Virus record (IMG/VR): IMGVR_UViG_3300037264_000664
Coordinates: 1-44,286 of that record
Source of the DNA: a virus
DNA length: 44,286 bases
Direction: 5' to 3' (one strand)
The position numbers were made by a program, and so were the translations under genes. Every line of letters starts with the position of its first letter. Position 1 is the first letter of the stretch. Shown here one piece after another: positions 7,701 through 39,862 of this stretch. The notes below the pieces were generated by a model, which made no database searches, was not told where the DNA came from, and saw only the letters and a list, made by a program, of their open reading frames with translations.

Positions 7701-10700
7701 GGGCCGCAAGTTCGACGGCAGCCACATGACATTGCCTGGCTTGCGTCAAGGCTTCGTGCCACACGCGCACCAGCTGCGCGCGATCTGGCGACAGATTCAG
7801 ACTGGGAACACCTATCTGGCGCACGCAGTGGGCGCAGGAAAGACGTTCGAGATGATCGCCGGTGGCATGGAACAGCGCCGCCTGGGCCTCATCAGCAAAC
7901 CGATGTACGTGGTGCCGAACCACATGCTCGAACAGTTCTCGAACGAATTCCTTGAGTTCTACCCGCTGGCGAACATCATGGTCGCCGACGACGAGAATTT
8001 CCACACCGACCGGCGCCGGGCATTCATCGCCGCAGCGACTCTCAACGCGCCCGACGCCATCATCATCACCCACAGCGCGTTCGAGCGCATCGGCGTGAAG
8101 GCCGAGAGCGTTGACCCAATCCGGGATCAAGTCATCGGTGATCTGCAAGCGGAACTGGACGACTCGGACAGTTCGGATCGCGTTCGGCGCAAAAACCTGG
8201 AACAGCAGATCGAGGCGGTGAATCAGCGCTTCGATCGCATCCTGGCGGCGGGGGGCAAGGACTCGACGATCAAGTTCGAGGACATGGGCGTCGACTTCGT
8301 CTATGTCGATGAGGCGCACGACTACCGCAAACTCGATTTCGCGACGAATCAATCGGTCAAAGGCGTCGATCCCAAGGGCTCAAGGCGAGCCATGGACATG
8401 TACGTCAAGACGCGATACCTGGAGAAGAAGTCGCCGGGTCGGTCGATGGTGTTTGCCACTGGTACGCCGGTGACGAACACGATGGGCGAGCTCTACACGA
8501 TCATGAAGTTCTTCGCGCCGGAAACACTGTCGCGCGACGACATCAGCACGTTCGATGCGTGGGCGCGCATGTTCGGCGAAGTCGTGACGGACCTCGAGAG
8601 CAATGTCGCGGGCAGGTATGAACCCGTGACGCGGTTTGCCAAATTCGACAACGTGGTGGAGTTGATGACCCGCGTCCGGCAGTTCATGGACGTGTTGACC
8701 TCCGATAGCCTGGGCGCACTTGTCAAAAGGCCAGACGTCGCTGGGGGCGGGCCACACATGATCGTCGTCGAGCCGACTTCGCAATTGCGCGACTACATGC
8801 GAACCGTGCTTGCGCCGCGGGTCGAGACATCAAGGAAATGGAAGCCCTCTCCGGATCAGCCGAACAACCCTGATCCGATGCTGAACATCATCACCGATGG
8901 GCGCTTTGCGGGGCTCGATCCGCGCTTCTTCGGTGCCAAGTTGGACCCCGGCACCGTGACGCCGCTGACGAAACTGGGCGAGACGATCATCGACGAGTAC
9001 AAGGCAAGCGCGGACAACCCATATGCCGACGCAGCCGGAAAGGTCGAAGCCCTCAAGGGCGGCACGCAGATCGTGTTCTACAACCTCGGGTTTGGCGCGC
9101 AGTCGATGGCGAACCGTGGCTTCAACGCAAGGCTGGCGCTGAACAAGCAACTCACGGCCGGAGGCGTCAAGCGCGAGCACATCGCATGGTTCGACGAGGC
9201 CAAGACCGACGCTGCGAAGGAGGCCTTATTCAAGGCCATGCGCGCGGGGCAGATTCGGGTGCTGATCGGGTCTGCCAAGAAAATGGGGACCGGGGTGAAC
9301 GTGCAGAAGCGGCTGACTGCGCTGCAATACCTCGATCCGCCGTGGTTTCCGGCCGATGTCGAACAGCCGCACGGGCGCATCTTGCGCCAGGGCAATCAGA
9401 ACGATGTCGTGCGTATCAACTGGTTCGCGGCGAAGGGCAGTTACGCTGAAGCGATGTGGCAAATGGTCGCGCGCAAACAGCGTTTCATCGACCAGGCATT
9501 CCGTGGCGACAAGACCATGCGCTCGATGGAGGACATGGACGAAGCGAGCCAATACGCGCAGGCCTCGGCACTGTCCAGCGATGACCCGCGCGCGATGCAG
9601 TTGGCGGGACTGCGCCAGGACGTCACGCGCTACGAAAACTTGCAGCGCGCGCATGCGAGCGAACAGATCGCCGTCAAGGACGCCATTCGCCAGGCGACAT
9701 ATAAGGCAGAAAACCACGCCAAGCGGTTGGCGGTTTTCGAGAAGGCATTCAAGGCGATCGGCGGGGAGCACATCTACTTCGAGTCCGGCAATGTCAACGG
9801 CAAGGAGTACGCCAAGTCGAAGGAATTCGGCCAGGCGCTCAAGGATCGGTTCAACCAACTCATCGCCGATGCAGTCCTGAGCCCGTACCAGGAGAAGCGC
9901 CCGCTTGGTTCGATTGGGTCGGTTGAACTGTGGATTCGACATCTAACCTTCTACGACACGGGCCTGAAGGCCCAGGTGCCTGGATCCACGTTCCAGCTGA
10001 TGGCAACGGTCGGCGGTCTGGACCTGGACGTGATGACCACCGAGGGGATGGGCAGCGACATCGACGATCAGGGTTTGACGAGACGTGTCCTCAACTCCGC
10101 AAATTCACTCAGTGGCTCCGTGGACCACGAACGCGACGGGTTGAAGGAGCAGCAAACCGAACTGACGCGCCTGAAGAAGAAATTCGGCGCCCCCTTCGAG
10201 CACGCGCACCAGATGGCCGAGAAGTACGGCGACTTGAAACGGCTCGAGGCGGAACTCGAAGCGGAAGGAAAGGCCAAGCCCGCGGCGCCGGCCGCGGCCG
10301 TCGAGCCGGAAGGCTCCACCAATCTGCGCCAGACCGGCGCGCCCGAGGCGAACACCACCGACACCGTGCAGTTCTCGGTTGTATCGGCTCGCGCATTCAG
10401 CAAACCAAAGCCCATCGGGGCCGACTCAGGAGTGAATTTCAACCGTGAAAAAGCCGTTGCAAACCTACCCGCTTCCGTGCGAGACGATCCATTCTTCGGG
10501 CCTGAAAAAACCGCGATGCGGAACGTTCACGCCCGCACCGCGCTATGGGACAAGCTCCAAGCGTTTGGCAAGGAACAGGGACTCCCGCCATACACCCTTG
10601 GTGTTGACAGCATCGGCAACATCACGGTCGGAAAGCCCGCCCCCCAAATCGCGCTGAAGCTGCTTGCGGAGTTCGCCGACGCGAACGACACAGGGGTCTA

Positions 10701-13700
10701 CGTTCTTGCACAGTCCGCGCAACAAAGCGTCGAGAAAATCTCGGCCTATCGCCCGATTGGGTATGAGCCGACGACGGGCCTCGGCCTATACGGGCAGAGC
10801 CGCGGATCGGGCGGGACATCCGATGGATTGGGTTTTGCTACGTTCGCCTACAAGCCGCGCGGCATTTCTGAGTTCATGTTCGCTGTCGGGGATGCCCCAG
10901 TATCCGAACGCGGCCCAACGGCGCAGAATATCGCCAATGCACCCGCCAGCCTCGCCGATCGAAACGCCACCGCCAAGCTCCAAGCCAGCATCAATACCGT
11001 CTGGCCTGATTTTGTGCTGGACCCTATTTCTGCGCGAGCTGCAGGCAAGGGCAGAGACGCCCTCTCCGAGCTCATCAAGCGAGTCTTCACCACCCGCCGA
11101 GTAGTCTGGTTCCAGGCGAATCACCTGTTCGCCGATGGGGTTCACGACCAGAAGCAGCGCGACGTTATCTTCCTGAACGTGCGTTCGCAGCGCCCGCACC
11201 TGGCGGCGGCCGGGCACGAGATGCTGCACGCCCTGAGCCTCGAGCAGCCGGCGCTGTATGCGCAACTGCGCACGCGCATCCTGGCCCTTGGCAAAGACCT
11301 CGACCTGCGCCACGCGCGGCTACAGGGAACCCGCATCAAGGTACTGGGCGAAGACGGCCGCATGACGCTTGCCGGGCTCGAGGAAGAATTCATTGCCGAT
11401 GTCGTGGGCGATAACTTCATGGACCCGAAGTTCTGGCAGATGCTGGCCAAGGATCAGCCCTCGGGCTTCCAGGCGGTGCTGAAAGCGATCCTGAATTGGA
11501 TCGATGACGTTCTCTCGAAGATACGCGCCCAGACCCCCTTCGGCACGAACGAATTCCTGACCGACATGGTCGCGGCGCGCAAGGCGGTTGCGGAGACGAT
11601 CCGCGCATTCGCCCCGGCGATCGACGAGGGACTGTCTGGCGCGGACATCAATCTGAGCGTTGCCGCCCAGGCACCGCCGTTCTACAGCGCGCTTGCGCGT
11701 CAGGTCGAGAAGTCTGCAATGAAGCAGGGCGACGCCGCGGCGTGGAAGCAGGCCATCAAAGGGATGGTCAACAGTGGTGTCGTGAAGGCGGACGAAGTTC
11801 AATGGACCGGCATGGACGAGTGGCTCGACCTGCAGCAAGGCAAGATCACGCGCCAGGCGGTAGGCGACTTCCTCAACGCCAACGGCGTGCAGGTAACGGA
11901 GACGGTGCTGGGCGATGGCGCGCCGACGCCGCTGAAGTGGGGGAAAGAAAGCGCGGAAGACGAAAACGACGAGTCGTTCATGGAGAGCGCCGACGGGTAT
12001 CGCATCGTGCGCGCCGCTGATGGCGCCCTAAGCATCTACACCCCGGACGGCGACCAAATTCACGGCGATATCTTCGGCGACGAACGTGCGAAGGAGTTGG
12101 CAGCAGCAGACGCGGCGGGCGATGACGGAGCGACCGTCACCAAGTACGGCCAGTACCAACTCCCCGGCGGACCGCTTTCCCGCGACACCGAAATCCTCTC
12201 GCGCGAGGGTTGGCTGCGCATGGACGAGGTTCAGGTCGGCGACATCGTGATGACGCGCCGCGACGATGACGGCGCGCTCGAATGGCAAGAGGTCGAGGCC
12301 GTGCCGACCGTGTTCGCGGACAAGCTCTACCACTTCAAGAACCAGTCGATCGACATGCGCGTCACGGCTTGCCACAACATGCTTGTCAAGCGACGCCGCC
12401 GCAGCTCGGGCGGGCTGTTCCGCGCCAAGGCGGCCGACCTGTGGACGATGGCGGAATGCGTTGCGCCGCTGGTTGGCGAGTGGGCCGATGGCGCCGCGGC
12501 GCCGCTGTACGGGTACGCAGCCCAAGATGCGGCAGAACTGATCGGCTGGTACATCGCCGAAGGCTCTGCCGTGACCGAAGACGGCAAAAAGTCCACGCTT
12601 GCAATCTCTCAAAGCCGCGAGGCAAACCCGGCCAAGTGCGACCAGATCGAGGCGCTGCTTGGCCGGATGGGCGTCGCCTGGAACTACGTCGAAAGCGGCC
12701 CGGCCTACTACCTGTCGATCAAGTCGATGGATCGCGGACTGGTGGCGTTGCTTCACGCGCAAGGGAAGTCGCACGACAAGTACATCCCCGGCTTCATGTT
12801 TGAGCAGCCGCGCAGCGTCATCGTGGCGCTGATGGATGGGCTGCTGCTTGGCGACGGCAATCTTGCGTGCAAGGACAGCCCGACGCGCGAGCCGCGCTGG
12901 GCCTATCACACGATGAGCAAGCAACTCGCCGACGACATGCAGGCATTGGCGCTGCTGTCTGGCGTGCGCGGCACCATCAGCCAGCGGCCGACCGGGCTGT
13001 ACGAGGTCAGGCTCAACTCAAAGCAGTGGGCCAGCATCGACGACGCGAAACACGCCATCGTTGACTACAACGACACCGCCTACTGCGTGACCGTGCAGAA
13101 CCATGCGATCTACGTTCGCACGGGTGGCGTCGCCGCGTTCACTGGAAACAGTAACTACCGCGAGGTGCTGTTGACGCTGCCGCGTGGCGTGGTCAACAAA
13201 CTCGACGACGCGGAGATCGCGGCCGAGGGCACCAACCCAACTAGCGGTAAGCCGTATGTCCGCTTCAACTGGCATGGGCAAACCTACGTTGTTGAGCGCG
13301 AGGCGGGCGAGTCGTCACGAGACGCAATGCTCCGGCGCATCAACAGTGACCGCGAGGGGCGTGGCGCGGGCGAAGTAAGGCCGCAATCTGAGTTCCGCTC
13401 CAACCACTGGGACCAGCCCAACGTCCTCGCCCACATCCGCCTGAACGACCGCACCGACGCCGACGGCAAGCGCGTGCTGTTCGTCGAGGAGATCCAGAGC
13501 GACTGGGGGCAGGCGGGGAAGAAGAAGGGCTTTGCCACTGGTGGCAGCCCGGCGCGCGACGCATTCAAGGCGTTCGAGGCCGACGTGCGCAAGCGCTTCC
13601 GCGAACAGGTCATCGGCGAGGCTACAGAACTGAAACCAGAGCGCCGCGAAGCCTGGGCCGACACGATCGTCAACAACTCGACTATCGGCGACATGGCTCG

Positions 13701-16700
13701 CGCGGTTGGCGAAGGCGAGAGGGCGCGCGAACTGCAACGCGCCGAGATGGAAGAAGAATCGGCGGCCGGCAAGACGGTTCCAGCCGCCCCCTTCGTCGGC
13801 AAGACCGACGCCTGGGTCAGCCTGGCCATCAAGCGCGTCATCAAGATCGCAGTCGATGGCGGGTATGACCGCGTGGCTTTCGTGAACGGTGACCAATCTG
13901 CGCTGCGCTACAAGGAAGCGCTGATGAAGGCGGTGGATACCATTGCGATCAAGCGCAACGATGGCGGCACATACACGCTTGATGCCTTCAAGGATGGGGC
14001 GGCCGTGCATGAAGAAACGCACATCGGCGCCGAGAAGGTGCGCGAACTGCTTGGAAAGGCCGGCGACGACATCATCGCCAAAGCCGACTCTGGCGTGGGC
14101 GCTGATGCCGGCGGCTACGTCACCATCAAGACCGGCGACATGGACATCGGAGGCGCGGGCATGCGCGCCTTCTACGACAAGATCGTCCCCAACGTCGCCA
14201 AGGAAGTGCTGCGCAAGGTGGGTGGCGGGCAGATGAAAACGGTTGACCTTTCATCGCCCGCGCTGGCCGAGACGCGCCGCAGGATGGGTGTGGCCACTGT
14301 CGACGCAAAGCAACAACCGGGATTCGACATCACCCCCGCCATGCGCGAGAAGGCCGCAGGCGGGCTGCCGATGTTCAGCGTGGCCAGCAACATCGAAGCC
14401 GGCCTCAACCGCGCGCGCGACATCAATCTGCCCCTGCGCTACAAGCTGGGCGACCTGTTCAACGACAACGGGCGCCTGAACTGGTGGCACAAGACTGTGG
14501 GCACGATGCACAACCTGGCGCAGCGCAGCCCGGCGTTCCGGCGGGTCTACGACACGACCCAGAACTTCCTGAATGACGTCAGCTACTACGCCACCGAGGC
14601 GAGCAGCTTGGCGCCGACGATCCTGCCGAAGCTCGAAACCTGGAAAGACATCGGCAGGACGCCCCTGTCCGCTGCGGACACCAAGGCGCTCGCCGGCCCT
14701 GTGTTCGAGGGCACCTTGATGTGGACGCGCGACGCGAATGGCACCCCCGTCCCTCAGCCCGACGTTCAAAAGGCGGGCATCGTTTGGACCGACGCCGAGT
14801 TGCGGTCGAGATTCCAGATGACGCCCAAGCAGATCGACCTCTACCGCCAGTTCCGCGCCACGATCGACAAGAGCCTCGAGAACCTCGCGATCAGCGACAT
14901 GCTGCGCTACGGCGGCGCGGACGTTGCCAAGGTGCGCCAGCAGGCCCTCGATGCGGGAAGCGTGGACGCTGCGGCGATGGTGCTGCACGACCACCTGGTG
15001 GAGTCGGCGGCAGAGGATGAGGACCGGGCGCCGCTCCTGCTGAGTACCGCAAAAGCCATCATGGACAAGGCCGAGCGCGCGAACGACTTGATGGCGCGCG
15101 GCTATGCGCCGCTTTCACGGTTTGGGCAGTACACACTGGATGTGGTCGACGGCGCTGGCGAGCGCGTCTATTTCGGGCTGTTCGAGACGGCCAGGGAGCG
15201 CTCGCGCAAGGCCCGAGAGATGCGGGCGGACAATCCCCGGGCGAGGATCACCCAAGGCACGGTTTCGGAGGAAGCGTACCGGCTATTCGCTGGCGTCACC
15301 CCGGAAACGCTGGAATTGTTCGGCGGCATGCTGGGCCTCGAAAGTCAGGGCAGCAACGCGGCGAGCCAGGCTTTCCAGGAGTACCTCAAGATCGCGCGCA
15401 GCAACCGCAGCGCATTGAAGCGCCTGATCGAACGCAAGGGCGTTGCCGGGTTCTCTGAGGACGCCGGGCGCGTGCTCGCGGGCTTCGTGTATTCAAACGC
15501 GCGCCAGACCAGCAGCAATCTGCACATGGGCGAGTTGACCGAGTCCATCGAGGCGATTCCGCAGGGCGCGGGCCAGTTGAAGGATCGGGCCGTCGCGCTG
15601 GCAGAGTACGTGAAAAACCCGACGGAGGAAGCGCAAGGATTGCGCGGCTTGTTGTTCGCGCAGTTCCTGGGCGGGTCAGTTGCCGCAGCGATGGTCAACA
15701 TGCTGCAGCCCGTGCAGGTCACGCTGCCCTATCTCAGCCAGTTCGGCGGGATTGCGAAGGCCGCGCGCCAGATGCTCGCCGCCGTGAAGGACGCAAACAA
15801 GCGCCTGACGGGCGATGCCGCGCTGGACGCTGCGCTGCACAAGGCGGCGGAAGAAGGCATCGTGTCGCCGCAGGAGGTCCACCAGCTGATGGCCCAGGCG
15901 ATGGGCCGCGGCGCGCAGCGTTCCGGCGACGGGACGCTGATGGGCAATCTGTCAGCCAGGGGCATGAACTACACCGCCAAGCTGCTGTTCGGGTGGGGCA
16001 AGGTATTCGGGGTGGCGGAACAATTCAACCGGCGCGTGACGTTCATTGCGGCCTACCGGACCGCGGCGGAGCAGGGGCGCAGCGACCCCGCTGGATTCGC
16101 CTCGCGCGCGGTGGCGGAAACCCAGTTCACCTACAACAAGGGCAACAAGCCGGCTTGGGCGCGCGGCGCCGTCGGCTCGACCCTGTTCACGTTCAAGCAA
16201 TACTCGATCAGCTACCTCGAGCTCCTGCACCGCATGTGGACCCAAGGCGGGGCCGATGGCAAGCGCGCGACCCTGCTGGCTCTGGGAATCCTGTTCCTGA
16301 TGTCCGGCGCCGGTGGCCTGCCGGGCTCCGACGATCTGGACGACCTGATCGACGGGTTCATGCAGAGCGTCATGGGCCTGAACTTTTCGAGCAAGCGCGC
16401 CAAGCGTGAATTCTTCGCGGAAACGCTGGGGCTTGGGGCCGATGGCTCGCGCTTCCTTGAGCACGGGCTGTCGGGTCTGCCCGGCTCGCCGATTGATGTC
16501 TCGGGACGCCTGGGGCTGGGCAACCTGATCCCCGGCACGGGCCTGCTGACGCGCAAGGCGGACCACACGGCGGACGTTGCCGAGATTGCCGGGCCGGCCG
16601 GAGATGTAATCAAGCGCACTTTCCAGGCCGGCGGCAAACTTCTCACCGGCGACGTGAAGGAAGCGCTCGGCCTGATTTCGCCGATCGCCGTGCAGAACCT

Positions 16701-17130
16701 CATCAAAGCCAATGACATGGCCACCACCGGCATGTATCGCGACAAGTCCGGGAAGAAGATTCTGGACGTCGATGGTTACGACGCGGCAATGAAGGCGATC
16801 GGCTTCCAGCCGGTCGACGTGGCGCGCGTCCAGGAGGCCAGCAGGACCGCGGCGCAAATGATCGGGTTGAACCGCATGCGGGAGACGGAAATTGCCGATC
16901 GGTGGGCGCGGGCGATCTTCGAGAAGAAGCCGGAGGACATCGCGGCTGCGCGCGACTCGTTGCGGGATTGGAACGTCGACAACCCGCAGTCGCCCATTCG
17001 GATCGTGCCCAACCAGATCAAGACCCGCGTCGAAGCTATGACGGTGGATCGCGCGACCCGGCTGCAAAAGACCGCCCCGAAGGAAATCCGGGCCCAGGTC
17101 CATCGTGAATTGCAGTTGAACCAGCGGTGA
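1768..17130 (+). CDS. Giant polyvalent protein: methyltransferase-helicase-metalloprotease with intein, 5120 aa
   Basis: One uninterrupted 5120-residue frame, GTG start overlapping the previous stop. Domains in order: hydrophobic Ala/Gly-rich N-terminus (~30-310); pyrophosphatase-like polyvalent domain (~570-692, InPase family); short Rmf/CrpP-like segment (~906-944, ends MWLEGWD); N6-adenine methyltransferase with EPGGGIG (1320-1326) and NPPF (1385-1388); SNF2-type helicase with AVGAGKT (2020-2026), DEAH (2181-2184) and GRILRQGN (from 2536); zinc metalloprotease HEMLH (3150-3154); intein (3469-3794); conserved FVEEIQSDW region; LPD38-like C-terminus (~4700-4900, FKQYS motif) with one hydrophobic segment near 4835. 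The family is known from phages and plasmids; methyltransferase-helicase fusions resemble P1 DarB, which protects injected DNA from restriction. I infer a virion-packaged, co-injected protein. No lytic transglycosylase motif was recognised. The linkers at 4232-4399 and 5027-5326 look out of frame (see nested genes). Confidence 0.93.
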   Translation: MSQYEDYLDQPDRVDPYGAYLDLGAPPRKATKAGAGVVRTLADQALSLGQGVVGGVKALVDIGGTGTAASRGLGTLNQGIEGLYSPTRTAEKQARQATIEEADTSGGTLDQVTSRLGGFAEAPAQTLLQGIGSMAPTVAAAVLSKGRTLAALPVGAAMGVGGIKGQNYDAVKAEATKQGLGEAQAEQLASRASEYNLSNAPQQALGGALGALDAGFGVERLLSNIVRGTVSPASRLKRVGIGAIEEAIPEGLQGSQGRYAQNLALTEAGFPTDLMSGVVGSGVHDAAVGAALGAGAGLPGRRALAAQQSPESIPQPIPSPGDPIRAGSLPAAGPLTNAVNIGIEGEAQAADVGVPTEAPIAAGLAGVPSTDAPHPDTKKPRGGKAAPGPLEAVAPEGGTEKPTFDPTTGEITPPQRASWPTREAVDQYLTQQRVSGGAKTGKAAPVELKGGGFSFLREGEPGYEEAAAAKPLPKLAQGKPKSAKQTKLQERRAKAEEKKAAKAAKASSVPIQPETAPETPTTPAPTVDEAAHVAATSTQNELPQPTQAQKEAGNYQKGHVAVGGLDISIENPQGSTRSGTDRSGKAWTVKMAHHYGYILGTVGADKDHIDTFIKPGTAEDYAGPAFVVDQVHPETGKFDEHKIMLGFPSALEARRAYAKNYAKGWKGLKSITPASLDELKAWLAGGHTKTAFSTRPTPIEQQVTAHGAPGTPIGVKTEGVPTAPTVPAPTQKAPAGLPAGSMAAPADDVVRNLRKLSHDTEAPGDVMLGNDKFVSMDEAIAAARAAMTPREHGMPFQFMRVLDISGRDLKRIVAAMKEGAPNAEAVRSDEEQVRPGGTEGQPSVQPGPEQGGGDLQQPPPEAAGDRGVGAEGPKEEVAPKTLRERRRAAVAEAAQKRADQEAAAGGNPHVWSGRAARKAGHSRTPPPEITGRRHIKMWLEGWDAAGPAEAPVAKAEDTQGAGATGEKTLADLVKAIDKKLPKPEKKQTDLQRRRAESKAKKGQGAAETGRILGENSDGNNVLEDPSGVRSYVTKEGVRVEETVALTPTRQGIVTSPVKPRAAEFKTAEEISAELAPPTTTPTKEAPDDSATPIPAPPVDQPMVERAAGNGEAPFRGAILESGIPGPADDGGLRGGGGPIEGLNDAGGNLGNGRGDGLLPNGPPDNLGDRQKRVSPDLDYRPGIGDLTRTGSWFETAGRNVDIIELAIKIDAEKRAATPEEQAQLAKYVGFGAGEIANALFPVPSEWARKQEPARLIWPDLVAQREKRWGPLAERLAALPVEWQKSILQSTQYAHYTSENMVRSIWAAVGRLGFTGGKMFEPGGGIGTFPMLMPESIRKDSKYTAIEFDGPTALISRLLTPGQNMLHDDFIKRKVPRNYFDLGIGNPPFSQTPILGDPDYAKFGFMLHDFFFAKTIDRVRPGGLQVFVTSKGTMDKQNAKARKYLAARADLLGAIRLPSTAFQGNAGTSVVTDVLFLRKRAEGEAPAGEAWQDLKSVDTPDGPVLINEYFAKNPHMVLGQNRISGNTDDKGRRINSNGRGGEKYTVVSYDETPAQLDAKFAKAVESLPQNVYSTMTASAETLRQQTAKIEFDPKIKREGVIYVAADGTLMRVENGAGRSLATMVRLSAKDTAWLKGYVGIRDAVQLARAAQVADGDWQAALKTLNKVYDKFLKDHGPINAFRIQVYKRTDEEGNETEVPRRVLTNRRLFREDYDQALVTQIEQITDDDKIIKAKFLRERTIGKPLVREVKTVGDALAVSLDELGRFDPKDVAKRINLTQEEALDALGAGVYKTPQGEWQLADEYLSGDVVAKLAEAQHAARDDASLERNVAALKEAQPEKLGPSQISPKLGASWVAAEFVSEFAKEIEAGHVTFDVKTESWQVTGSDKRSERRAGADYGSADRSSSELLEAMLNSRDIVVKYGRSAGEDLAGKVNPTATTAANEAASKIREKFRSWVWTDSERAVTLVETYNERFNNLAGRKFDGSHMTLPGLRQGFVPHAHQLRAIWRQIQTGNTYLAHAVGAGKTFEMIAGGMEQRRLGLISKPMYVVPNHMLEQFSNEFLEFYPLANIMVADDENFHTDRRRAFIAAATLNAPDAIIITHSAFERIGVKAESVDPIRDQVIGDLQAELDDSDSSDRVRRKNLEQQIEAVNQRFDRILAAGGKDSTIKFEDMGVDFVYVDEAHDYRKLDFATNQSVKGVDPKGSRRAMDMYVKTRYLEKKSPGRSMVFATGTPVTNTMGELYTIMKFFAPETLSRDDISTFDAWARMFGEVVTDLESNVAGRYEPVTRFAKFDNVVELMTRVRQFMDVLTSDSLGALVKRPDVAGGGPHMIVVEPTSQLRDYMRTVLAPRVETSRKWKPSPDQPNNPDPMLNIITDGRFAGLDPRFFGAKLDPGTVTPLTKLGETIIDEYKASADNPYADAAGKVEALKGGTQIVFYNLGFGAQSMANRGFNARLALNKQLTAGGVKREHIAWFDEAKTDAAKEALFKAMRAGQIRVLIGSAKKMGTGVNVQKRLTALQYLDPPWFPADVEQPHGRILRQGNQNDVVRINWFAAKGSYAEAMWQMVARKQRFIDQAFRGDKTMRSMEDMDEASQYAQASALSSDDPRAMQLAGLRQDVTRYENLQRAHASEQIAVKDAIRQATYKAENHAKRLAVFEKAFKAIGGEHIYFESGNVNGKEYAKSKEFGQALKDRFNQLIADAVLSPYQEKRPLGSIGSVELWIRHLTFYDTGLKAQVPGSTFQLMATVGGLDLDVMTTEGMGSDIDDQGLTRRVLNSANSLSGSVDHERDGLKEQQTELTRLKKKFGAPFEHAHQMAEKYGDLKRLEAELEAEGKAKPAAPAAAVEPEGSTNLRQTGAPEANTTDTVQFSVVSARAFSKPKPIGADSGVNFNREKAVANLPASVRDDPFFGPEKTAMRNVHARTALWDKLQAFGKEQGLPPYTLGVDSIGNITVGKPAPQIALKLLAEFADANDTGVYVLAQSAQQSVEKISAYRPIGYEPTTGLGLYGQSRGSGGTSDGLGFATFAYKPRGISEFMFAVGDAPVSERGPTAQNIANAPASLADRNATAKLQASINTVWPDFVLDPISARAAGKGRDALSELIKRVFTTRRVVWFQANHLFADGVHDQKQRDVIFLNVRSQRPHLAAAGHEMLHALSLEQPALYAQLRTRILALGKDLDLRHARLQGTRIKVLGEDGRMTLAGLEEEFIADVVGDNFMDPKFWQMLAKDQPSGFQAVLKAILNWIDDVLSKIRAQTPFGTNEFLTDMVAARKAVAETIRAFAPAIDEGLSGADINLSVAAQAPPFYSALARQVEKSAMKQGDAAAWKQAIKGMVNSGVVKADEVQWTGMDEWLDLQQGKITRQAVGDFLNANGVQVTETVLGDGAPTPLKWGKESAEDENDESFMESADGYRIVRAADGALSIYTPDGDQIHGDIFGDERAKELAAADAAGDDGATVTKYGQYQLPGGPLSRDTEILSREGWLRMDEVQVGDIVMTRRDDDGALEWQEVEAVPTVFADKLYHFKNQSIDMRVTACHNMLVKRRRRSSGGLFRAKAADLWTMAECVAPLVGEWADGAAAPLYGYAAQDAAELIGWYIAEGSAVTEDGKKSTLAISQSREANPAKCDQIEALLGRMGVAWNYVESGPAYYLSIKSMDRGLVALLHAQGKSHDKYIPGFMFEQPRSVIVALMDGLLLGDGNLACKDSPTREPRWAYHTMSKQLADDMQALALLSGVRGTISQRPTGLYEVRLNSKQWASIDDAKHAIVDYNDTAYCVTVQNHAIYVRTGGVAAFTGNSNYREVLLTLPRGVVNKLDDAEIAAEGTNPTSGKPYVRFNWHGQTYVVEREAGESSRDAMLRRINSDREGRGAGEVRPQSEFRSNHWDQPNVLAHIRLNDRTDADGKRVLFVEEIQSDWGQAGKKKGFATGGSPARDAFKAFEADVRKRFREQVIGEATELKPERREAWADTIVNNSTIGDMARAVGEGERARELQRAEMEEESAAGKTVPAAPFVGKTDAWVSLAIKRVIKIAVDGGYDRVAFVNGDQSALRYKEALMKAVDTIAIKRNDGGTYTLDAFKDGAAVHEETHIGAEKVRELLGKAGDDIIAKADSGVGADAGGYVTIKTGDMDIGGAGMRAFYDKIVPNVAKEVLRKVGGGQMKTVDLSSPALAETRRRMGVATVDAKQQPGFDITPAMREKAAGGLPMFSVASNIEAGLNRARDINLPLRYKLGDLFNDNGRLNWWHKTVGTMHNLAQRSPAFRRVYDTTQNFLNDVSYYATEASSLAPTILPKLETWKDIGRTPLSAADTKALAGPVFEGTLMWTRDANGTPVPQPDVQKAGIVWTDAELRSRFQMTPKQIDLYRQFRATIDKSLENLAISDMLRYGGADVAKVRQQALDAGSVDAAAMVLHDHLVESAAEDEDRAPLLLSTAKAIMDKAERANDLMARGYAPLSRFGQYTLDVVDGAGERVYFGLFETARERSRKAREMRADNPRARITQGTVSEEAYRLFAGVTPETLELFGGMLGLESQGSNAASQAFQEYLKIARSNRSALKRLIERKGVAGFSEDAGRVLAGFVYSNARQTSSNLHMGELTESIEAIPQGAGQLKDRAVALAEYVKNPTEEAQGLRGLLFAQFLGGSVAAAMVNMLQPVQVTLPYLSQFGGIAKAARQMLAAVKDANKRLTGDAALDAALHKAAEEGIVSPQEVHQLMAQAMGRGAQRSGDGTLMGNLSARGMNYTAKLLFGWGKVFGVAEQFNRRVTFIAAYRTAAEQGRSDPAGFASRAVAETQFTYNKGNKPAWARGAVGSTLFTFKQYSISYLELLHRMWTQGGADGKRATLLALGILFLMSGAGGLPGSDDLDDLIDGFMQSVMGLNFSSKRAKREFFAETLGLGADGSRFLEHGLSGLPGSPIDVSGRLGLGNLIPGTGLLTRKADHTADVAEIAGPAGDVIKRTFQAGGKLLTGDVKEALGLISPIAVQNLIKANDMATTGMYRDKSGKKILDVDGYDAAMKAIGFQPVDVARVQEASRTAAQMIGLNRMRETEIADRWARAIFEKKPEDIAAARDSLRDWNVDNPQSPIRIVPNQIKTRVEAMTVDRATRLQKTAPKEIRAQVHRELQLNQR
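4232..4399 (+). CDS. Overprinted small basic protein inside the polyvalent gene
   Basis: A 55-residue frame, shifted +1 against the polyvalent gene, from ATG 4232 to TAG 4397-4399. A very strong ribosome-binding site (AAGGAAGGAG) sits just upstream. The product starts MPKQYEAMRNKF, contains AAAIYNSRHP and ends in a basic tail, KARKKK. Small phage and plasmid proteins of this look are common and have no assigned function. Of its 55 codons 51 end in G or C, whereas the polyvalent frame over the same bases has only about half G/C at third positions and reads as a Gly/Pro/Gln-rich linker. That points to this frame as the constrained one. Expression has not been shown. Confidence 0.7.
   Translation: MPKQYEAMRNKFAQGAPKDSPAYNQAQSKAAAIYNSRHPKQPVTGASEPKARKKK
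5027..5326 (+). CDS. Overprinted 99-aa protein inside the polyvalent gene
   Basis: A 99-residue frame, +1 relative to the polyvalent gene, from ATG 5027 to TGA 5326, with AAAGAGG six bases upstream of the start. The product is well mixed in composition: a basic N-terminus, an acidic helical stretch (MMEVFEEEEDQLRDSMM), then FPMDRLTIWETVRNEYLP. About 80 of 99 codons end in G/C, against about 47 percent for the polyvalent frame over the same bases, which there encodes a Gly/Pro/Asn-rich linker directly ahead of the methyltransferase domain. I do not recognise the family. It may be an independent gene whose DNA was read through when the giant gene was assembled. Confidence 0.68.
   Translation: MIPPLQSLRRRSISRWLSEQPAMAKLPSAELSSKVESLDQQMMEVFEEEEDQLRDSMMRAGTWGTGAGMGSFPMDRLTIWETVRNEYLPTLTTDQESET
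12172..13149 (+). mobile_element. In-frame intein with LAGLIDADG homing endonuclease, class 3-like
   Basis: 326 residues (polyvalent residues 3469-3794) interrupt a continuous extein motif: YQLPGG upstream and SNYREVLLTLP downstream. The N-terminal splicing block reads PLSRDTEILSREGW, an intein block A but with Pro at position 1 instead of Cys or Ser. Block B is TACH (Thr3533, His3536). The two LAGLIDADG helices are LIGWYIAEG (3591-3599) and LMDGLLLGDG (3688-3697). Block F is YCVTVQNH with Cys3773 at the position usually Asp. The C-terminus is FTGN, with Thr two residues before the terminal Asn, and Ser is the +1 residue. Cys in block F plus Thr in block G without a position-1 nucleophile is the class 3 pattern known from the mycobacteriophage Bethlehem DnaB intein. 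The usual block B Trp appears to be Met3538. Confidence 0.9.
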
Positions 17131-20164: not shown

Positions 20165-20520
20165 GTCTCGACCAATTCCTTGTCTGGTGGGCGTCGGCCT
20201 TCGATGGCCCATTCGCGGTACTCTTGCTGCTGTTGGCCGGTCTGGCAATCATGCTATGGCGAGCGCAGAAGAATGGACACCTGGACTTCGCCAAGATGTT
20301 CAAGGACGAGAACGGCAAAGAGTCAGGATTACGATTCTGCGTTTTGGGGGCGTGGATCATTTCGAGTTGGGTCGTGATGGCCGATTTGGTGGCGCAGAAG
20401 CAAGGTGACGCTGCACTGCTTGGAATCTATCTCGCCACATGGTCGGGGTCCGCGGTGTTCATCAGGGCACTAGAGCGGTGGGATGGAAGTCTCGCAAAGA
20501 AACCCAACATCACGACATGA
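20161..20520 (+). CDS. Holin candidate, three membrane segments, 119 aa
   Basis: ATG 20161 overlaps the endolysin stop. Hydrophobic segments lie at about residues 15-33 (FAVLLLLLAGLAIMLW), 57-78 (FCVLGAWIISSWVVMADL) and 86-104 (ALLGIYLATWSGSAVFI), separated by charged loops including AKMFKDENGKESGLR. The position between endolysin and spanins supports a holin that opens the inner membrane for the endolysin. No specific holin family was identified. Confidence 0.7.
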   Translation: MSLDQFLVWWASAFDGPFAVLLLLLAGLAIMLWRAQKNGHLDFAKMFKDENGKESGLRFCVLGAWIISSWVVMADLVAQKQGDAALLGIYLATWSGSAVFIRALERWDGSLAKKPNITT

Positions 20521-21077
20521 TAAATTTCCTTGCCCTCATCCCAGGTCTAGGAGCCCTGAAAGCCATAGCCATTGCTGCGGCGATTACCTCGTTGGTGGCT
20601 ACGGGGGTTGGGATTGAACGTTACTACGCGGGGAAGAAAGCCGGGGTATCTCAAGACAAGAAACGAAGCGATGCCGTCATCGACAAACTCAGACACGACG
20701 CCCAGAACGCCTACGACCAAATCATGGCGTCGTATCGGAGTCTGGAAAACTCGATGAACTCGGCTATCAAGGAGAAACAACGTGAGTACGACAAAGCCAA
20801 AGCGAAGCATCAGGAAGTACTTGTGGCTGAGCGTGCTACCGCTGCTGCTGACAGTGACATCTTGCGCAAACGTTTCGAGTCCGGACCCGCTACCGGTTGC
20901 AGTAGCAACACCACCCAGATTCCCGCCACCCCCAGCAGTGGAGATGCCCCCGCCATCGGGGACGTACTGGATGACCTATTGCGAAGGACGAAAGAACTTG
21001 CAGGAGCGGCTGAAGGTCACGCTGAGTCCGTCAGAACTCTGCACGATGCTTGGCGTTCGGTAGAGGCTATTCGCTGA
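20517..21077 (+). CDS. Rz: Rz-like inner-membrane spanin
   Basis: ATG 20517 overlaps the holin candidate stop. 186 residues: N-terminal membrane anchor (ALKAIAIAAAITSLVATGVGI), then a long charged coiled coil in the periplasm (about residues 45-120, e.g. AIKEKQREYDKAKAKH). This is the i-spanin design, which acts with an outer-membrane lipoprotein to fuse the two membranes in the last step of lysis. The partner Rz1 gene lies nested in another frame. The stop TGA 21075-21077 touches the left edge of the attC cassette array. Confidence 0.85.
   Translation: MINFLALIPGLGALKAIAIAAAITSLVATGVGIERYYAGKKAGVSQDKKRSDAVIDKLRHDAQNAYDQIMASYRSLENSMNSAIKEKQREYDKAKAKHQEVLVAERATAAADSDILRKRFESGPATGCSSNTTQIPATPSSGDAPAIGDVLDDLLRRTKELAGAAEGHAESVRTLHDAWRSVEAIR
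20782..21063 (+). CDS. Rz1: Rz1-like outer-membrane spanin lipoprotein, nested in Rz
   Basis: A GTG-started frame of 93 residues fully inside Rz in another frame, the classical nested arrangement. The N-terminus is basic (TTKPKRSIRKYLW), followed by a hydrophobic core and a lipobox ending TVTSC, so cysteine 28 would be lipid-modified. The mature part is Pro-rich (RFPPPPAVEMPPPSG), as in known o-spanins. It is longer than lambda Rz1 but within the range seen in other phages. Confidence 0.85.
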   Translation: MSTTKPKRSIRKYLWLSVLPLLLTVTSCANVSSPDPLPVAVATPPRFPPPPAVEMPPPSGTYWMTYCEGRKNLQERLKVTLSPSELCTMLGVR

Positions 21078-21097
21078 TGTTATTGGAAACGTTAGGC
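21076..21097 (+). repeat. Left boundary of the cassette array: 12-bp repeat plus core box
   Basis: GATGTTATTGGA (21076-21087) followed closely by the core box GTTAGGC (21091-21097). The same 12 bp recur at 21319-21330, again followed by GTTAGGC after a longer spacer. The two copies flank the first cassette gene. No partner GCCTAAC is visible, so this is at best the remnant of an attC or the insertion target of the array. Confidence 0.6.
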
Positions 21098-21316
21098 GTA
21101 TGCGTCTTCATCGGGGTCGTACCACTTGCCGCGACTGAAGCGTTTCACCAACTTCAGCGAGTCCATGCAAAGCACGTTTGCCCATCCCCCGGCGTACTCG
21201 AATTCGTTCGGGTCGTGCCCTGCTATGGCCTGATCTAGCGTGTCGAATCGACCCTTCAGGTCTTCGGCGCCTCCGCTTGGGTAGTAGTCGTTTCCAGCAA
21301 AAAGTAGGTATTCCAT
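21092..21316 (-). CDS. Cassette gene 1: acidic 74-aa protein
   Basis: Leftward frame whose TAA stop is the complement of TTA inside the core box GTTAGGC. The product (MEYLLFAGNDYYPSGG...) is acidic and ends WYDPDEDAYA, without membrane segments. Its start lies at the edge of the second 12-bp repeat and has no clear Shine-Dalgarno. The whole gene fits between two core boxes, so it behaves as one mobile cassette. Small phage proteins of this type are common and unassigned. Confidence 0.68.
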   Translation of the reverse strand: MEYLLFAGNDYYPSGGAEDLKGRFDTLDQAIAGHDPNEFEYAGGWANVLCMDSLKLVKRFSRGKWYDPDEDAYA

Positions 21317-21318
21317 CG

Positions 21319-21356
21319 GATGTTATTGGACACTTGTCGTCTATAACACGTTAGGC
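21319..21356 (+). repeat. Degenerate attC-like site
   Basis: The 12-bp repeat GATGTTATTGGA, a short hairpin with arms TGTTAT (21321-21326) and ATAACA (21343-21348), then a perfect core box GTTAGGC (21350-21356). The opposite core box (GCCTAAC) is missing, so the site is much shorter than the three complete attC sites to the right. It may be a decayed attC. Confidence 0.5.
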
Positions 21357-21686
21357 CGCACGAACAGCCGCCCGTGCGCGCAGCATCTCGTCTGCCATCT
21401 CATAGGCGTAATCGGCCACCCATGCCTGAACCTGCCGCCATTCATCGGCCTCTATCTCGCCGCTGTCGTACCGCTGCCGAGCCGACTGCATTTCCATCTG
21501 CATGGCCTTTGCCGCGAAGTAGTCCCGAAGGCTCATGCCCGGCTCATCGCCCGGCGTCACCAAAAACAGGTTGTCGCCTGCGGGCTGGCTGCGCTCCGGT
21601 TTGTACGGGAACGCGGCGCCACCGTCCGCGTGCGGCCTAACCTGGCGCTCAAGCGGAGCACCAACGGCCGGTTCAGTCTGTGCCAT
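21351..21686 (-). CDS. Cassette gene 2: phage-type protein with RDYFAAKAMQ motif
   Basis: 111 residues from ATG 21686, chosen because AAAGGA sits five bases upstream; ATG 21692 in the same frame is possible. The stop TAA lies in the core box at 21350-21356. The core MSLRDYFAAKAMQ...YEMADEML resembles a small protein family widespread in phage genomes, with no known function. The first 17 codons (up to PLERQVRPH) are encoded by the attC site at 21635-21736, so ribosome-binding site and start lie in the attC loop. The gene runs opposite to the attC orientation. Confidence 0.8.
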   Translation of the reverse strand: MAQTEPAVGAPLERQVRPHADGGAAFPYKPERSQPAGDNLFLVTPGDEPGMSLRDYFAAKAMQMEMQSARQRYDSGEIEADEWRQVQAWVADYAYEMADEMLRARAAVRAA

Positions 21687-21736
21687 CTTCATCCTTTCGT
21701 GCGGGCCGTTGGTGCCCGCTTAGCTCTACGTTAGGC
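21635..21736 (+). other. attC recombination site 2 (102 bp)
   Basis: Core boxes GCCTAAC (21635-21641) and GTTAGGC (21730-21736) bracket an imperfect palindrome. The left arm reads GCT-C-AAGCGG-A-GCACC and pairs with GGTGC-CCGCTT-AGC on the right, leaving C and A unpaired. These two extrahelical positions are the hallmark of integron attC sites and set the top strand as the + strand. The unpaired spacers next to the boxes are also as expected. The loop carries the start region of cassette gene 2 on the opposite strand. Confidence 0.9.
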
Positions 21737-22273
21737 CCCATGAATACGGCACTCCCACAGCACGCGCGGAACTCCGCCATTGCCTACCGGGTCGCGCTTG
21801 TCCTTCAGGGCCACGCTGCTTTCGGCCCAACTCTTGCGGGCTTCCAGCGTCTTCACTTTCACCCAGCCGGCCGCTCGCAGGCTTGCGCCAGTCTCGTCGG
21901 CCTGGGTGTACGTAATGCACCGCTTGTAGCCCATCGCCTTCGCAGCGCGCCACACAGCACCGTAGAGCATGCTGTTCGCGTTCGGCGTGCCATCGGTGCA
22001 TGTGCGGTTCACTTCCAGCGTCACGCCGTCGTCGTAGTGCCTGGCCACCGGGCGCCCAGCTGTCGCCACGCCCACAAGGTCGGCGCCAGCCCGCAGGCCA
22101 ACCCCGAACTTCCAACCGCGTGGCGGCTTGTTGTGGCGGTGGTGCAGGGCAATGAACTCGCACGCCTGCCGCAGTGTCACCGGCACCACATGGGGCCTAA
22201 CCCGGCGGTCAAGCGGAATGCCCACGGCGGGGCAGTCCGTCGCGTCTTCCAGCAGTAGTGCCGCCGTGGTCAT
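21731..22273 (-). CDS. Cassette gene 3: XF1762-like protein (GNAT-type fold)
   Basis: 180 residues. The core from VPVTLRQACEFIALHHRH through GVATAGRPVARHYDDG, LEVNRTCTDGTPNANSMLYG and AAKAMGYKRCITYT to GASLRAAGW matches the XF1762 family of phage-associated acetyltransferase-like proteins as I know it; activity is unproven. The stop TAA lies in core box 21730-21736. The ATG at 22273 is in the right arm of the attC site 22195-22294, and AAAGG at 22282-22286 is its ribosome-binding site, so the first 26 codons (to about PLDRRVRPH) are attC-derived. The gene is antiparallel to the attC. Confidence 0.85.
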   Translation of the reverse strand: MTTAALLLEDATDCPAVGIPLDRRVRPHVVPVTLRQACEFIALHHRHNKPPRGWKFGVGLRAGADLVGVATAGRPVARHYDDGVTLEVNRTCTDGTPNANSMLYGAVWRAAKAMGYKRCITYTQADETGASLRAAGWVKVKTLEARKSWAESSVALKDKRDPVGNGGVPRVLWECRIHGA

Positions 22274-22294
22274 CCGCTTACCTTTACGTTAGGC
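22195..22294 (+). other. attC recombination site 3 (100 bp)
   Basis: Core boxes GCCTAAC (22195-22201) and GTTAGGC (22288-22294). The left arm GGT-C-AAGCGG-A-ATG pairs with CAT-CCGCTT-ACC on the right, again leaving exactly C and A unpaired, and CACGGCGG pairs with CCGCCGTG further in. Same orientation as the other complete attC sites. The right arm contains the start codon and ribosome-binding site of cassette gene 3 on the minus strand. Confidence 0.9.
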
Positions 22295-22498
22295 CCCTGA
22301 TTCATCGGCTGGCGGCAAGGTGTAGATCGTGAAGTTCACCGCCCTACCAGGCAGCCATGCGCCGGCCTGATTCGCTGGCACTTGTACCGTGATCCACTCC
22401 TCTTTCACGGTGGAGCGCGGCGGACACAGCGTCACGGCAAACATGTCGCCTTGCCCGCACTCGATCTTTGCCACATGGCCCTGGAACTGAATCGTCAT
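22289..22498 (-). CDS. Cassette gene 4: small beta-rich protein, 69 aa
   Basis: 69 residues from ATG 22498, with AGGAGAT six bases upstream. The stop TAA lies in core box 22288-22294. The product (MTIQFQGHVAKIECGQGDMF...) appears beta-rich, with two cysteines, and no recognised motif. Unlike genes 2 and 3 its start is not inside an attC. Bases 22499-22600 between it and the next attC hold no further convincing frame and could contain a promoter; I see no clear one. Confidence 0.75.
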   Translation of the reverse strand: MTIQFQGHVAKIECGQGDMFAVTLCPPRSTVKEEWITVQVPANQAGAWLPGRAVNFTIYTLPPADESGA

Positions 22499-22600
22499 CT
22501 TGATCTCCTGTTGGCCCGCTTTCGCGAGCCGGTTTCAACCCGCCCATGCGAGTACGCATCGGCTCGTGCTACTGTTCAGTTCCGTGGGGTCAGCCGCCCA

Positions 22601-22665
22601 GCCTAACCCTCGGTCGAGCCGACGCTGCCCGGGTACGGTCATCGCGGCTCACCTCTACGTTAGGC
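22601..22665 (+). other. attC recombination site 4 (65 bp)
   Basis: Core boxes GCCTAAC (22601-22607) and GTTAGGC (22659-22665), closer to the classical attC length. The left arm GGT-C-GAGCCG-A-CG pairs with CG-CGGCTC-ACC on the right, leaving C and A extrahelical as in sites 2 and 3 and in known attC sites such as that of aadA1. Top strand is again the + strand. The stop of cassette gene 5 lies in the right core box. Confidence 0.92.
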
Positions 22666-23022
22666 CCCAGGCGCTGGGTGAGCCGTCCTGAATGCCTCTC
22701 TCTCTGCTACTTCCTTGTCAAACAGCGCCTGTGCCCCTCCAAGCGCGCGGGCTTCGTCCAAGTTGGGCAGGTGCCCAGGCCCATCCAGCGTGTTCACGAT
22801 CCACTGCAAACCGTGCCCTGGGCCTCTCAAATGTCCGTCCACCACAGCGGCGCGCATCGCCAGAATCTGGTGGTGCATCAGGTCGCCGAACATGATCGCC
22901 CGGCGCTCGCTGCTGGCTTCGGCAACTTCAACGCCCAGCGCAAACGCCGCCAGTTCCCGGTCAGTCGGCTCCACGCCTGGCAGCTTGCGTTTCCACGCGG
23001 CAATCAGTTGGTCGCTCGTCAT
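22660..23022 (-). CDS. Cassette gene 5: phage-type 120-aa protein
   Basis: ATG 23022 is chosen because AGGA sits five bases upstream; the frame stays open to 23055. The stop TAA is in core box 22659-22665. The product (MTSDQLIAAWKRKLPGVEPTD...) is a soluble, mostly helical protein. The segment FALGVEVAEASSERRAIMFG resembles small unassigned phage proteins. No attC or core box is visible upstream of this gene, so the array has no closing site on its right side, or the site has decayed. Confidence 0.75.
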   Translation of the reverse strand: MTSDQLIAAWKRKLPGVEPTDRELAAFALGVEVAEASSERRAIMFGDLMHHQILAMRAAVVDGHLRGPGHGLQWIVNTLDGPGHLPNLDEARALGGAQALFDKEVAEREAFRTAHPAPGA

Positions 23023-23108
23023 CTTCTTCCTCGTCGGTGTGGTCATCAAGGTCAAACACTACGCCGCAGGCTGCACATCGTTGCCATCTTCATGCTTGCT
23101 CGAGTGGG

Positions 23109-23294
23109 TCAATCATTCTTTCGCCGAGCCTTTGAGAACTCGACGAACCAGTCAGGCCGGAGCAGCCGCAGGTAGCGCTCGTGCTTGGCAGGTAGCACTG
23201 TCTTCCAGTGGTAGGTGGTGATCGGCGCCACGGCCAGCAGCTGGGCGAGCGCATCGCGCCCGCCGGCTTTCCTCATCGCAAACGCTGTGTCCAT
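23109..23294 (-). CDS. Cro/YdaS-like transcriptional repressor, 61 aa
   Basis: The ATG at 23294 gives MDTAFAMRKAGGRDALAQLLAV... with a helix-turn-helix (ALAQLLAVAPITTYHWKTVLP) and the ending LRLLRPDWF, typical of short Cro-like phage repressors. It has no Shine-Dalgarno. A -10 (CATAGT, minus strand, 23300-23305) and -35 (TTGCAA, 23324-23329) with an 18-bp spacer would start the transcript at about the ATG, so the mRNA is probably leaderless. It faces away from the early operon and shares an operator region with it, which suggests control of its own and the early promoter. Confidence 0.78.
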   Translation of the reverse strand: MDTAFAMRKAGGRDALAQLLAVAPITTYHWKTVLPAKHERYLRLLRPDWFVEFSKARRKND

Positions 23295-23298
23295 GCGC

Positions 23299-23313
23299 AA
23301 CTATGCCATAGTT
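23299..23313. promoter_or_regulatory. Perfect 15-bp palindrome over the repressor -10 box
   Basis: AACTATG-C-CATAGTT is a perfect inverted repeat centred on one base. It overlaps the minus-strand -10 (CATAGT) of the Cro-like gene, five bases ahead of its start codon. This is the expected place for an autoregulatory operator. Binding is inferred from symmetry and position. Confidence 0.7.
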
Positions 23314-34567: not shown

Positions 34568-35038
34568 ATGGACCCAAGACCACCAGTCGAATACTCCGAG
34601 CTGCTTGCAGAAACGATCTTCGAGTACCTCTCCGAGGGTATCTCGATGAAAATGATCTGCGAAAAGCCGGGTATGCCCTCGTATTCGACGGCCAGGCGGT
34701 GGGAGCGCACGCGCAAGGACTACGCCGAGAAGGCGATGATGGCCCGCACGGTGGGCTGCCACTACCTCGCTGACGAGTGCCTCGAGATTGCCGACGATTC
34801 CAAACGAGACTACGTCGCCACCGACCGCGGCCCGCAGTTCGACCACGAGCATGTGCGGCGCGCACAACTGCGCATCGACACCAGAATGCGACTGCTCGAA
34901 AAGTGGGCGCCGATGCTGTACGGCCAGAAGATCGACCACTCGCACTCAGGCACCGTGAAGGTCGAGAAGATCAAGTACGTCATCATCGACCCAGCACCCA
35001 AGCCTGTGGCGCCCGATGCCGGCAGAACTGATCTTTGA
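34568..35038 (+). CDS. Terminase small subunit-like protein
   Basis: ATG 34568, 156 residues. A helix-turn-helix-like N-terminus (EGISMKMICEKPGMPSYSTARRW) is followed by a helical core with the sequence pattern of small terminases (ADECLEIADDSKRD...HVRRAQLRIDTRMRLLEKWAP). It would recognise the packaging site and deliver DNA to the large subunit, which begins inside its last codons (23-bp overlap). The start is just downstream of the terminator, so the promoter for this operon is not obvious. Confidence 0.8.
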   Translation: MDPRPPVEYSELLAETIFEYLSEGISMKMICEKPGMPSYSTARRWERTRKDYAEKAMMARTVGCHYLADECLEIADDSKRDYVATDRGPQFDHEHVRRAQLRIDTRMRLLEKWAPMLYGQKIDHSHSGTVKVEKIKYVIIDPAPKPVAPDAGRTDL

Positions 35039-36356: not shown

Positions 36357-36359
36357 TCC

Positions 36360-38435: not shown

Positions 38436-38454
38436 GCACCTCGAGGAGAACACG

Positions 38455-38682
38455 ATGTCCAAACACAGCACGGTAATACCCGGCGGTTACGGCCCCGACG
38501 ACTGGCAAGCCAAAGCAGACATGCGCACGCTTGTCGAGGCCCAGTGCATCAAGAACGACCCAAAACGCTTCGCGAAGGCGAAGAAGTGCGCCCAGCAGGA
38601 GGCCGAGGAAATCGAACAGGCATTCGACACCGAGCCCGCCGAAGACGGCGCCGGCAAGAAGGACAAGGGCGACCCGTACTAA
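38455..38682 (+). CDS. Small acidic/basic head protein, 75 aa
   Basis: ATG 38455 with GAGGAGA upstream. The product starts MSKHSTVIPGGYGPDDWQAKAD and ends with a charged Glu/Lys/Asp-rich tail. It lies between portal and scaffold, where small head-assembly proteins are common. Family not recognised. Confidence 0.65.
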   Translation: MSKHSTVIPGGYGPDDWQAKADMRTLVEAQCIKNDPKRFAKAKKCAQQEAEEIEQAFDTEPAEDGAGKKDKGDPY

Positions 38683-38706
38683 CCCCACAACAAAAGGAAC
38701 TGATCC

Positions 38707-39666: not shown

Positions 39667-39862
39667 GCGTTTCGGCGGTGCTATAGTCCCCGCCAACGGA
39701 TTCGCACACTCCGCCCAAAAGGTGCGTGCCTCGCTCAGCTAGGGTGCGATAACCCCAGCAGGCCCTCGCAGAGCCTCCCCATTCTGTGTGCCTCGCGGCA
39801 GAGCGGCGATACGGCTCAAAGCATTCCCCATGTTTTGATCTTCCGTATAGGAGCGCCAAGCT
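39667..39862 (+). promoter_or_regulatory. Intergenic region before capsid with extended -10 promoter
   Basis: No gene in these 196 bases. TGCTATAGT (39679-39687) is a good extended -10 box, without a well-spaced -35. Two copies of GTGCCTCGC occur further on (39726-39734 and 39788-39796), which may form RNA structure, and TAGGAG shortly before the capsid ATG is its ribosome-binding site. It would give the capsid gene extra transcription. Confidence 0.5.

Follow-up and report, generated by a model that had tools for sequence, protein, structure and literature searches.

The viral DNA analysed here, a stretch of 44,286 nucleotides that we call the window, carries an array of attC sites, the recombination sites by which bacteria shuffle resistance genes. 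We consider it probable, at about 0.8, that in this tailed, probably lytic phage the array consists of integron gene cassettes without an integrase and belongs to a widespread, phage-specific variant with attC at the 5' end of the gene, which a host integron integrase (IntI) would move in trans. The cassette genes run opposite to the polarity of the attC sites, and this inversion is general across dozens of sampled phage contigs and is not a property of bacterial arrays. Phage attC clusters, their methyltransferase cargo and the use of such sites by IntI1 are already known; in the papers searched, neither inverted cassettes nor a phage class of cassettes was described.

Structure of the array

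The features of the window that are discussed below are the following, with the slash in a box marking the cut.

1768..17130, +, DarB-like antirestriction / DNA methyltransferase-helicase giant protein; 5,120 aa, single ORF
20439..21077, +, spanin-like late gene; phrog_312; convergent with the array
21091..21097, +, left edge of the array, G/TTAGGC box; directly after the spanin-like gene; holds the TAA of gene 1
21092..21316, -, cassette gene 1, inverted; 74 aa; phrog_1411 (unknown function), E 9.3e-9
21319..21356, +, GATGTTATTGGAC...GTTAGGC box; small GTTAT/ATAAC hairpin; copy of the left-edge sequence 21076-21087
21351..21692, -, cassette gene 2; 113 aa; start inside attC 1; phrog_2201, E 5.9e-17
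21635..21736, +, attC site 1; 102 nt; extra C in left arm; G/TTAGGC at 21730; 48.7 bits, E 7.4e-11
21731..22273, -, cassette gene 3; 180 aa; start inside attC 2; Mom-like DNA modification protein; phrog_1384, E 1.4e-39
22195..22294, +, attC site 2; 100 nt; G/TTAGGC at 22288; 47.5 bits, E 1.5e-10
22289..22498, -, cassette gene 4; 69 aa; no family match
22535..22642, -, 35-aa ORF; starts inside attC 3; possible leader of cassette 4, without homology
22601..22665, +, attC site 3; 65 nt; G/TTAGGC at 22659; 49.4 bits, E 4.9e-11
22660..23055, -, gene 5; 131 aa; ATG at 23022; TAA stop in the attC 3 box; phrog_18739
23109..23300, -, small protein upstream of gene 5; weak Cro/YdaS-like similarity, below curated cut-offs
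35016..40960, +, terminase large subunit, portal and major head protein; mark of a tailed phage

The three attC sites lie within 1.03 kb. An earlier note on this DNA, made from the letters alone, had placed GCCTAAC boxes at 21635, 22195 and 22601 and GTTAGGC boxes at 21730, 22288 and 22659, and all of these coordinates are correct. The unpaired C and A that it described in the left arm are likewise present in all three sites (GCT-C-AAGCGG, GGT-C-AAGCGG and GGT-C-GAGCCG, each followed by the unpaired A), that is, the inner pairing of each site falls into a three-base and a six-base stem, which an additional C separates in the left arm. Under a mechanical anatomy rule, the outer boxes fit RYYYAAC...GTTRRRY and are complementary, and the L and R pairs are complete (9/9 and 7/7) in every site, and this rule finds three sites in the 44,286 bases of the window versus none in 60 dinucleotide-preserving shuffles of it. 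A covariance-model search used a model of 20 bacterial attC sites only, which is independent of the window. It recovered exactly these three sites on the plus strand (47.5-49.4 bits; E 4.9e-11 to 1.5e-10) and no other locus, and on the opposite strand it matched only the middle site, at 21.3 bits. Structure rule and covariance score agree that the sites are genuine attC, as had been claimed. Chance hairpins, considered as a candidate, are ruled out by the 60 shuffles and the covariance model. Single-strand folding energies of all three sites are far below those of shuffles on both strands, and in each site the minus ('bottom') strand folds more stably than the plus strand (-28.7/-27.4, -28.5/-24.4 and -22.0/-16.9 kcal/mol, minus/plus). 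Rfam, searched over the window at its gathering threshold, reported no attC family and only a tRNA.

Five boxes (21091, 21350, 21730, 22288 and 22659) each hold the TAA stop of a minus-strand gene. The observation that each attC site sits at such a stop, with the TAA within the right-hand box (GCCTAAC read on the minus strand), was made before and holds; the list of boundaries given with it was incomplete, as there are two more G/TTAGGC boxes, at 21091 and 21350, each with the TAA of a minus-strand gene. Cut at R', the cassettes are 21092-21350, 21351-21730, 21731-22288 and 22289-22659, and each has its attC at the 5' end of the gene, except that in 21092-21350 the attC is absent or decayed. 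At its ends, the window array has degenerate sites. The box at 21319..21356 was called attC neither by the anatomy rule nor by the covariance model, and we regard it, with uncertainty, as a decayed attC or another end site. A direct repeat, GATGTTATTGGA, is seen at 21076-21087 and 21319-21330, beside the two left-most GTTAGGC boxes, and is possibly a decayed end site.

PHROG matches support four of the five minus-strand genes (1, 2, 3 and 5). In gene 2 the phrog_2201 match covers residues 20-109 only, so that the N-terminus of this protein is encoded by attC. The Mom-like gene 3 has 19 viral relatives; relatives of it (L004, L006-L022) were seen on viral contigs without an array detected around them. 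Relatives of gene 5 occupy true attC cassettes in two other loci (L023 and L024).

The carrier phage and the missing recombinase

The carrier is a tailed phage, and the identification of the contig as phage in the earlier note is borne out by its terminase large subunit (TerL), portal, major head protein and DarB-like protein. Exonuclease, spanin-like and endolysin-like proteins are also encoded. The giant ORF at 1768-17130 contains methyltransferase, helicase and endolysin-like stretches, and a tRNA-Met (CAT) gene lies within the phage at 33800-33874 of the window. In its portal the phage shares 50% identity with Acidovorax phage AP1 and 32% with Pseudomonas phages KPP25 and phiR18; from the likeness to AP1, our guess is a Burkholderiales host. 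A search with the spanin-like gene found no relatives, and a search of GenBank phages for close relatives gave only short cargo-gene matches and no array.

No integron integrase is present, as had been noted, since the contig has no TIGR02249 match. With the PF00589 profile, the contig yielded no tyrosine recombinase of any type, and the phage is therefore probably lytic. Such a recombinase is also absent from 27 of 29 array-bearing viral contigs, among the matches listed. With at least two attC sites, no intI and phage genes, the array is a cluster of attC sites without integrase (CALIN) carried by a phage. It is not a complete integron, because intI is lacking and neither attI nor Pc was recognised in the window. 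Overall, the earlier description as genuine attC sites in a phage CALIN was right but incomplete, as phage CALINs had already been published and the array is non-classical, with its genes inverted.

With a bacterial IntI query, 19 viral contigs bearing an integron-integrase relative were also found (L273-L291), 17 of them over the TIGR02249 cut-off. These contigs were considered as an explanation of the arrays and rejected, since no multi-site attC array occurred in the stretches examined, and three of the contigs showed a single site. It may be that they are prophages which use an integron integrase or flank one.

Inverted gene polarity in viral arrays

The polarity of an attC site is set by the extra base in L'', and the gene of a classical cassette lies on whichever strand has the extra C in the left arm. 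That strand is plus in the window, and the cassette genes are on the minus strand; this opposition of genes and attC polarity had been overlooked in the earlier note. The classical arrangement, a gene followed by its attC with the gene on the attC top strand, is not found in the window.

To place this arrangement in context, one attC motif was searched for among viral contigs as well as bacterial and archaeal genomes, both of which are samples. After de-duplication, the matches listed comprised 53 viral arrays with 127 cassettes and 43 genomic arrays with 105 cassettes. Judged by ORF length among these listed matches, 58 viral cassettes are inverted, 13 classical and 56 undecided, and the corresponding genomic numbers are 5, 79 and 21; the inverted-to-classical ratios of 58:13 and 5:79 differ with a Fisher p of 1e-23. 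Because ORF length is ambiguous for GC-rich short genes (56/127 undecided), a homology test was added. Again among the matches listed, ORFs on the inverted strand of the 53 viral arrays matched 21 Pfam and 74 PHROG families, and the 108 viral ORFs on the classical strand matched no family in either collection. The 43 genomic arrays, which serve as a control, gave 44 Pfam families on the classical strand and a single one, a transposase, on the inverted strand (among the matches listed). A second, smaller motif sample yielded few arrays, with a weak result by ORF length (three inverted to two classical cassettes) and two PHROG families on the inverted strand versus none on the classical strand.

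The start of the gene lies inside the upstream attC in 18 of the 53 viral genes with a credible start, versus 1 of 55 bacterial genes (p 6e-6, among the matches listed). Across 18 viral loci the covariance model gave one polarity per array, save for two weak reverse matches that overlap stronger ones. The published phage TJE1 has classical polarity, its gene and three model matches all lying on the plus strand, so that inversion does not extend to every phage and either kind is possible.

The carriers are diverse, since a shared portal type gave only weak matches in 2/33 array-bearing contigs (among the matches listed). One terminase profile matched 13/33 such contigs, many of which are fragments, and another terminase profile matched 0/22, in both cases among the matches listed. 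One 31-kb viral contig has 15 attC model matches in about 7 kb (L029; G004, 7086-13980).

Exchange of units between related phages

Comparison between arrays, among the matches listed, shows that 29 of 84 ends of homology lie no more than 15 nt from an outer box of attC, where 5.7 would be expected. At 85% identity or more, 14 of the ends listed are at R' and 2 at R'', an excess that is as integron recombination predicts. Two loci (L029 and L099) have in common a 394-bp stretch, 99.5% identical, that consists of an attC and the downstream gene, with unrelated flanks on both sides starting exactly at GCCTAAC. Because the next attC differs between these two, the unit is attC plus gene. Another pair (L033 and L063) is 99.97% identical over 7,183 bp and diverges exactly at GCCTAAC, L033 having one more attC; this is a weaker case, as L033 ends about 200 bp beyond the junction and an assembly fork is possible there. 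L029 and L071 have a common cassette at different positions.

In the matches inspected, viral and sampled bacterial arrays are similar only over short stretches of 23-119 bases, which are probably attC, and no gene common to both was seen. No conserved attI-like sequence is common to all left edges of the arrays. Left edges are common to related phages in two pairs (L023 with L063, and L069 with L079), which suggests a fixed landing point with different cassettes. The left edge of L044, CGCCCTAAATCAA/GTTAGGC, lies about 690 bp before the first attC and may resemble the attI1 core. Late genes adjoin the array, in convergent orientation, in the window, L005 and L023.

In the cargo of the viral cassettes, DNA methyltransferases (N6/N4, C5 and Dam methylases) predominate, and further cargo includes Mom-like genes, anti-restriction or restriction alleviation (Lar) genes and many small unknowns. 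This content points to a possible role as swappable counter-defence.

Proposed mechanism and alternative explanations

We propose that the mobile unit would consist of attC and then a gene that runs against the attC polarity; in the bacterial unit, the gene comes first and its attC second. IntI of the host, or of a different element in the same cell, would fold the bottom strand of attC, which is here the gene-coding strand, and cleave it, and units would be joined at RYYTAA/C (= G/TTARRY). Because the join point lies just past TAA, the stop of the neighbouring gene would be intact after insertion. The incoming unit would carry its own 5' part, namely the attC, the ribosome-binding site and often the start codon, so that transcription would be expected to come from the phage, on the side opposite to the integron Pc. 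An ORF that starts inside attC would survive shuffling only if the attC moves with the downstream gene. That this arrangement is common to many phages suggests a separate phage pool of exchangeable genes. A fuller version of this proposal, which we put forward tentatively and at rather less than even odds, is that phages have their own pool of 5'-attC cassettes, expressed from phage promoters, moved by host IntI at infection and born by insertion of attC at TAA/C stops.

Insertion at such stops might by itself account for the pattern, if resident phage genes were turned into cassettes by repeated IntI-mediated insertion of attC elements and exchange were secondary. Inverted polarity would then follow automatically, as a G/TTA cut corresponds to TAA/C on the gene strand and spares the stop; indeed, 27/58 inverted viral genes have the TAA exactly in the box (among the matches listed). 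It would also fit that Mom-like and gene-5-like genes occur in phage loci without a detected array, and that the N-termini attached to such genes are attC-encoded. However, classical cassettes, too, often have a TAA in the R'' box (24/79, among the matches listed), and no case was demonstrated of the expected intermediate, in which one attC would stand without a gene at the stop of a phage gene while a homologue is empty; we hold this explanation to be a serious contender but a doubtful one. It is unlikely that the attC resemblance reflects ancestry only and that the units are moved by a phage recombinase other than a tyrosine recombinase, or by homologous recombination at repeated hairpins. 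Nearly all array-bearing contigs are without a tyrosine recombinase, and the common attC sequence could act as homology; however, the breakpoints are precise at R' (14 versus 2, among the matches listed), and the sites keep the extra base in L'', the spacing and the preferential folding of the bottom strand that bacterial attC has and IntI needs. In addition, one study showed that IntI1 recombines phage attC (Qi et al., PMC9892861).

The array might also be an ordinary phage CALIN (Qi et al., 2023) made of classical host-integron cassettes, with the inversion in the window being incidental. Phage CALINs are on record, TJE1 has classical polarity, and the window sites are structurally ordinary attC, which would lead one to take this view. 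It is nevertheless quite improbable, as the inversion is systematic (0 families on the classical strand versus 74 PHROG families on the inverted strand among the viral matches listed, and the reverse in bacteria) and no gene was common with the sampled bacterial arrays in the matches inspected. Transcription terminator hairpins or RNA elements that merely resemble attC would be consistent with the intergenic position of the sites and with strong folding on both strands, but this is hardly credible in view of covariance matches at E 1e-10 with attC-specific boxes and the extra base, and of the exchange of whole units at the boxes.

Comparison with known systems

The bottom-strand selectivity of attC has been held essential, in that it orients the inserted cassette for expression from Pc (PMC8946536). 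The inverted phage cassettes form a large class and show that the coupling of polarity to Pc is not universal. Because phage units would be antisense to Pc, the phage and bacterial pools are expected to be functionally separate, and the prediction is of two cassette pools unable to usefully exchange expressed genes. If host IntI moves the units at infection, the integron system would also serve phage counter-defence through methyltransferases, Mom and restriction alleviation, and a pool of the phages' own would both give them a counter-defence repertoire open to exchange and serve as a direct model of gene cassette birth. Nucleotide-level comparison of related phages that have or lack units makes the origin of cassettes directly testable.

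Phage CALINs, including those of lytic phages, have been described and partly assayed (Qi et al., 2023; PMC9892861). That paper calls the arrays of Tetrasphaera phage TJE1 and of PH101 typical and does not describe systematic inversion. The window array resembles the phage CALINs presented there in being an integrase-free attC cluster, in the lytic phages that carry such clusters and in DNA methyltransferase cargo; unlike TJE1, with its classical polarity, the window has inverted genes. In phage P12002L, neither the anatomy detector nor the covariance model found a convincing attC site.

Finally, the phage arrays resemble bacterial cassettes and CALINs in their boxes, spacing, cleavage box, bottom-strand stability and single polarity per array, and the extra base in L'' is C in 98/106 viral and 91/96 bacterial sites among the matches listed. 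Like complete mobile and chromosomal integrons, they are arrays of exchangeable cassettes, but unlike these they have no intI and no recognised attI or Pc, and their genes would be antisense to Pc if inserted at attI. They also differ from bacterial cassettes in that the phage genes run against the attC polarity, each unit comprises an attC and the gene downstream, the start often lies in attC, and the cargo is of phage type.
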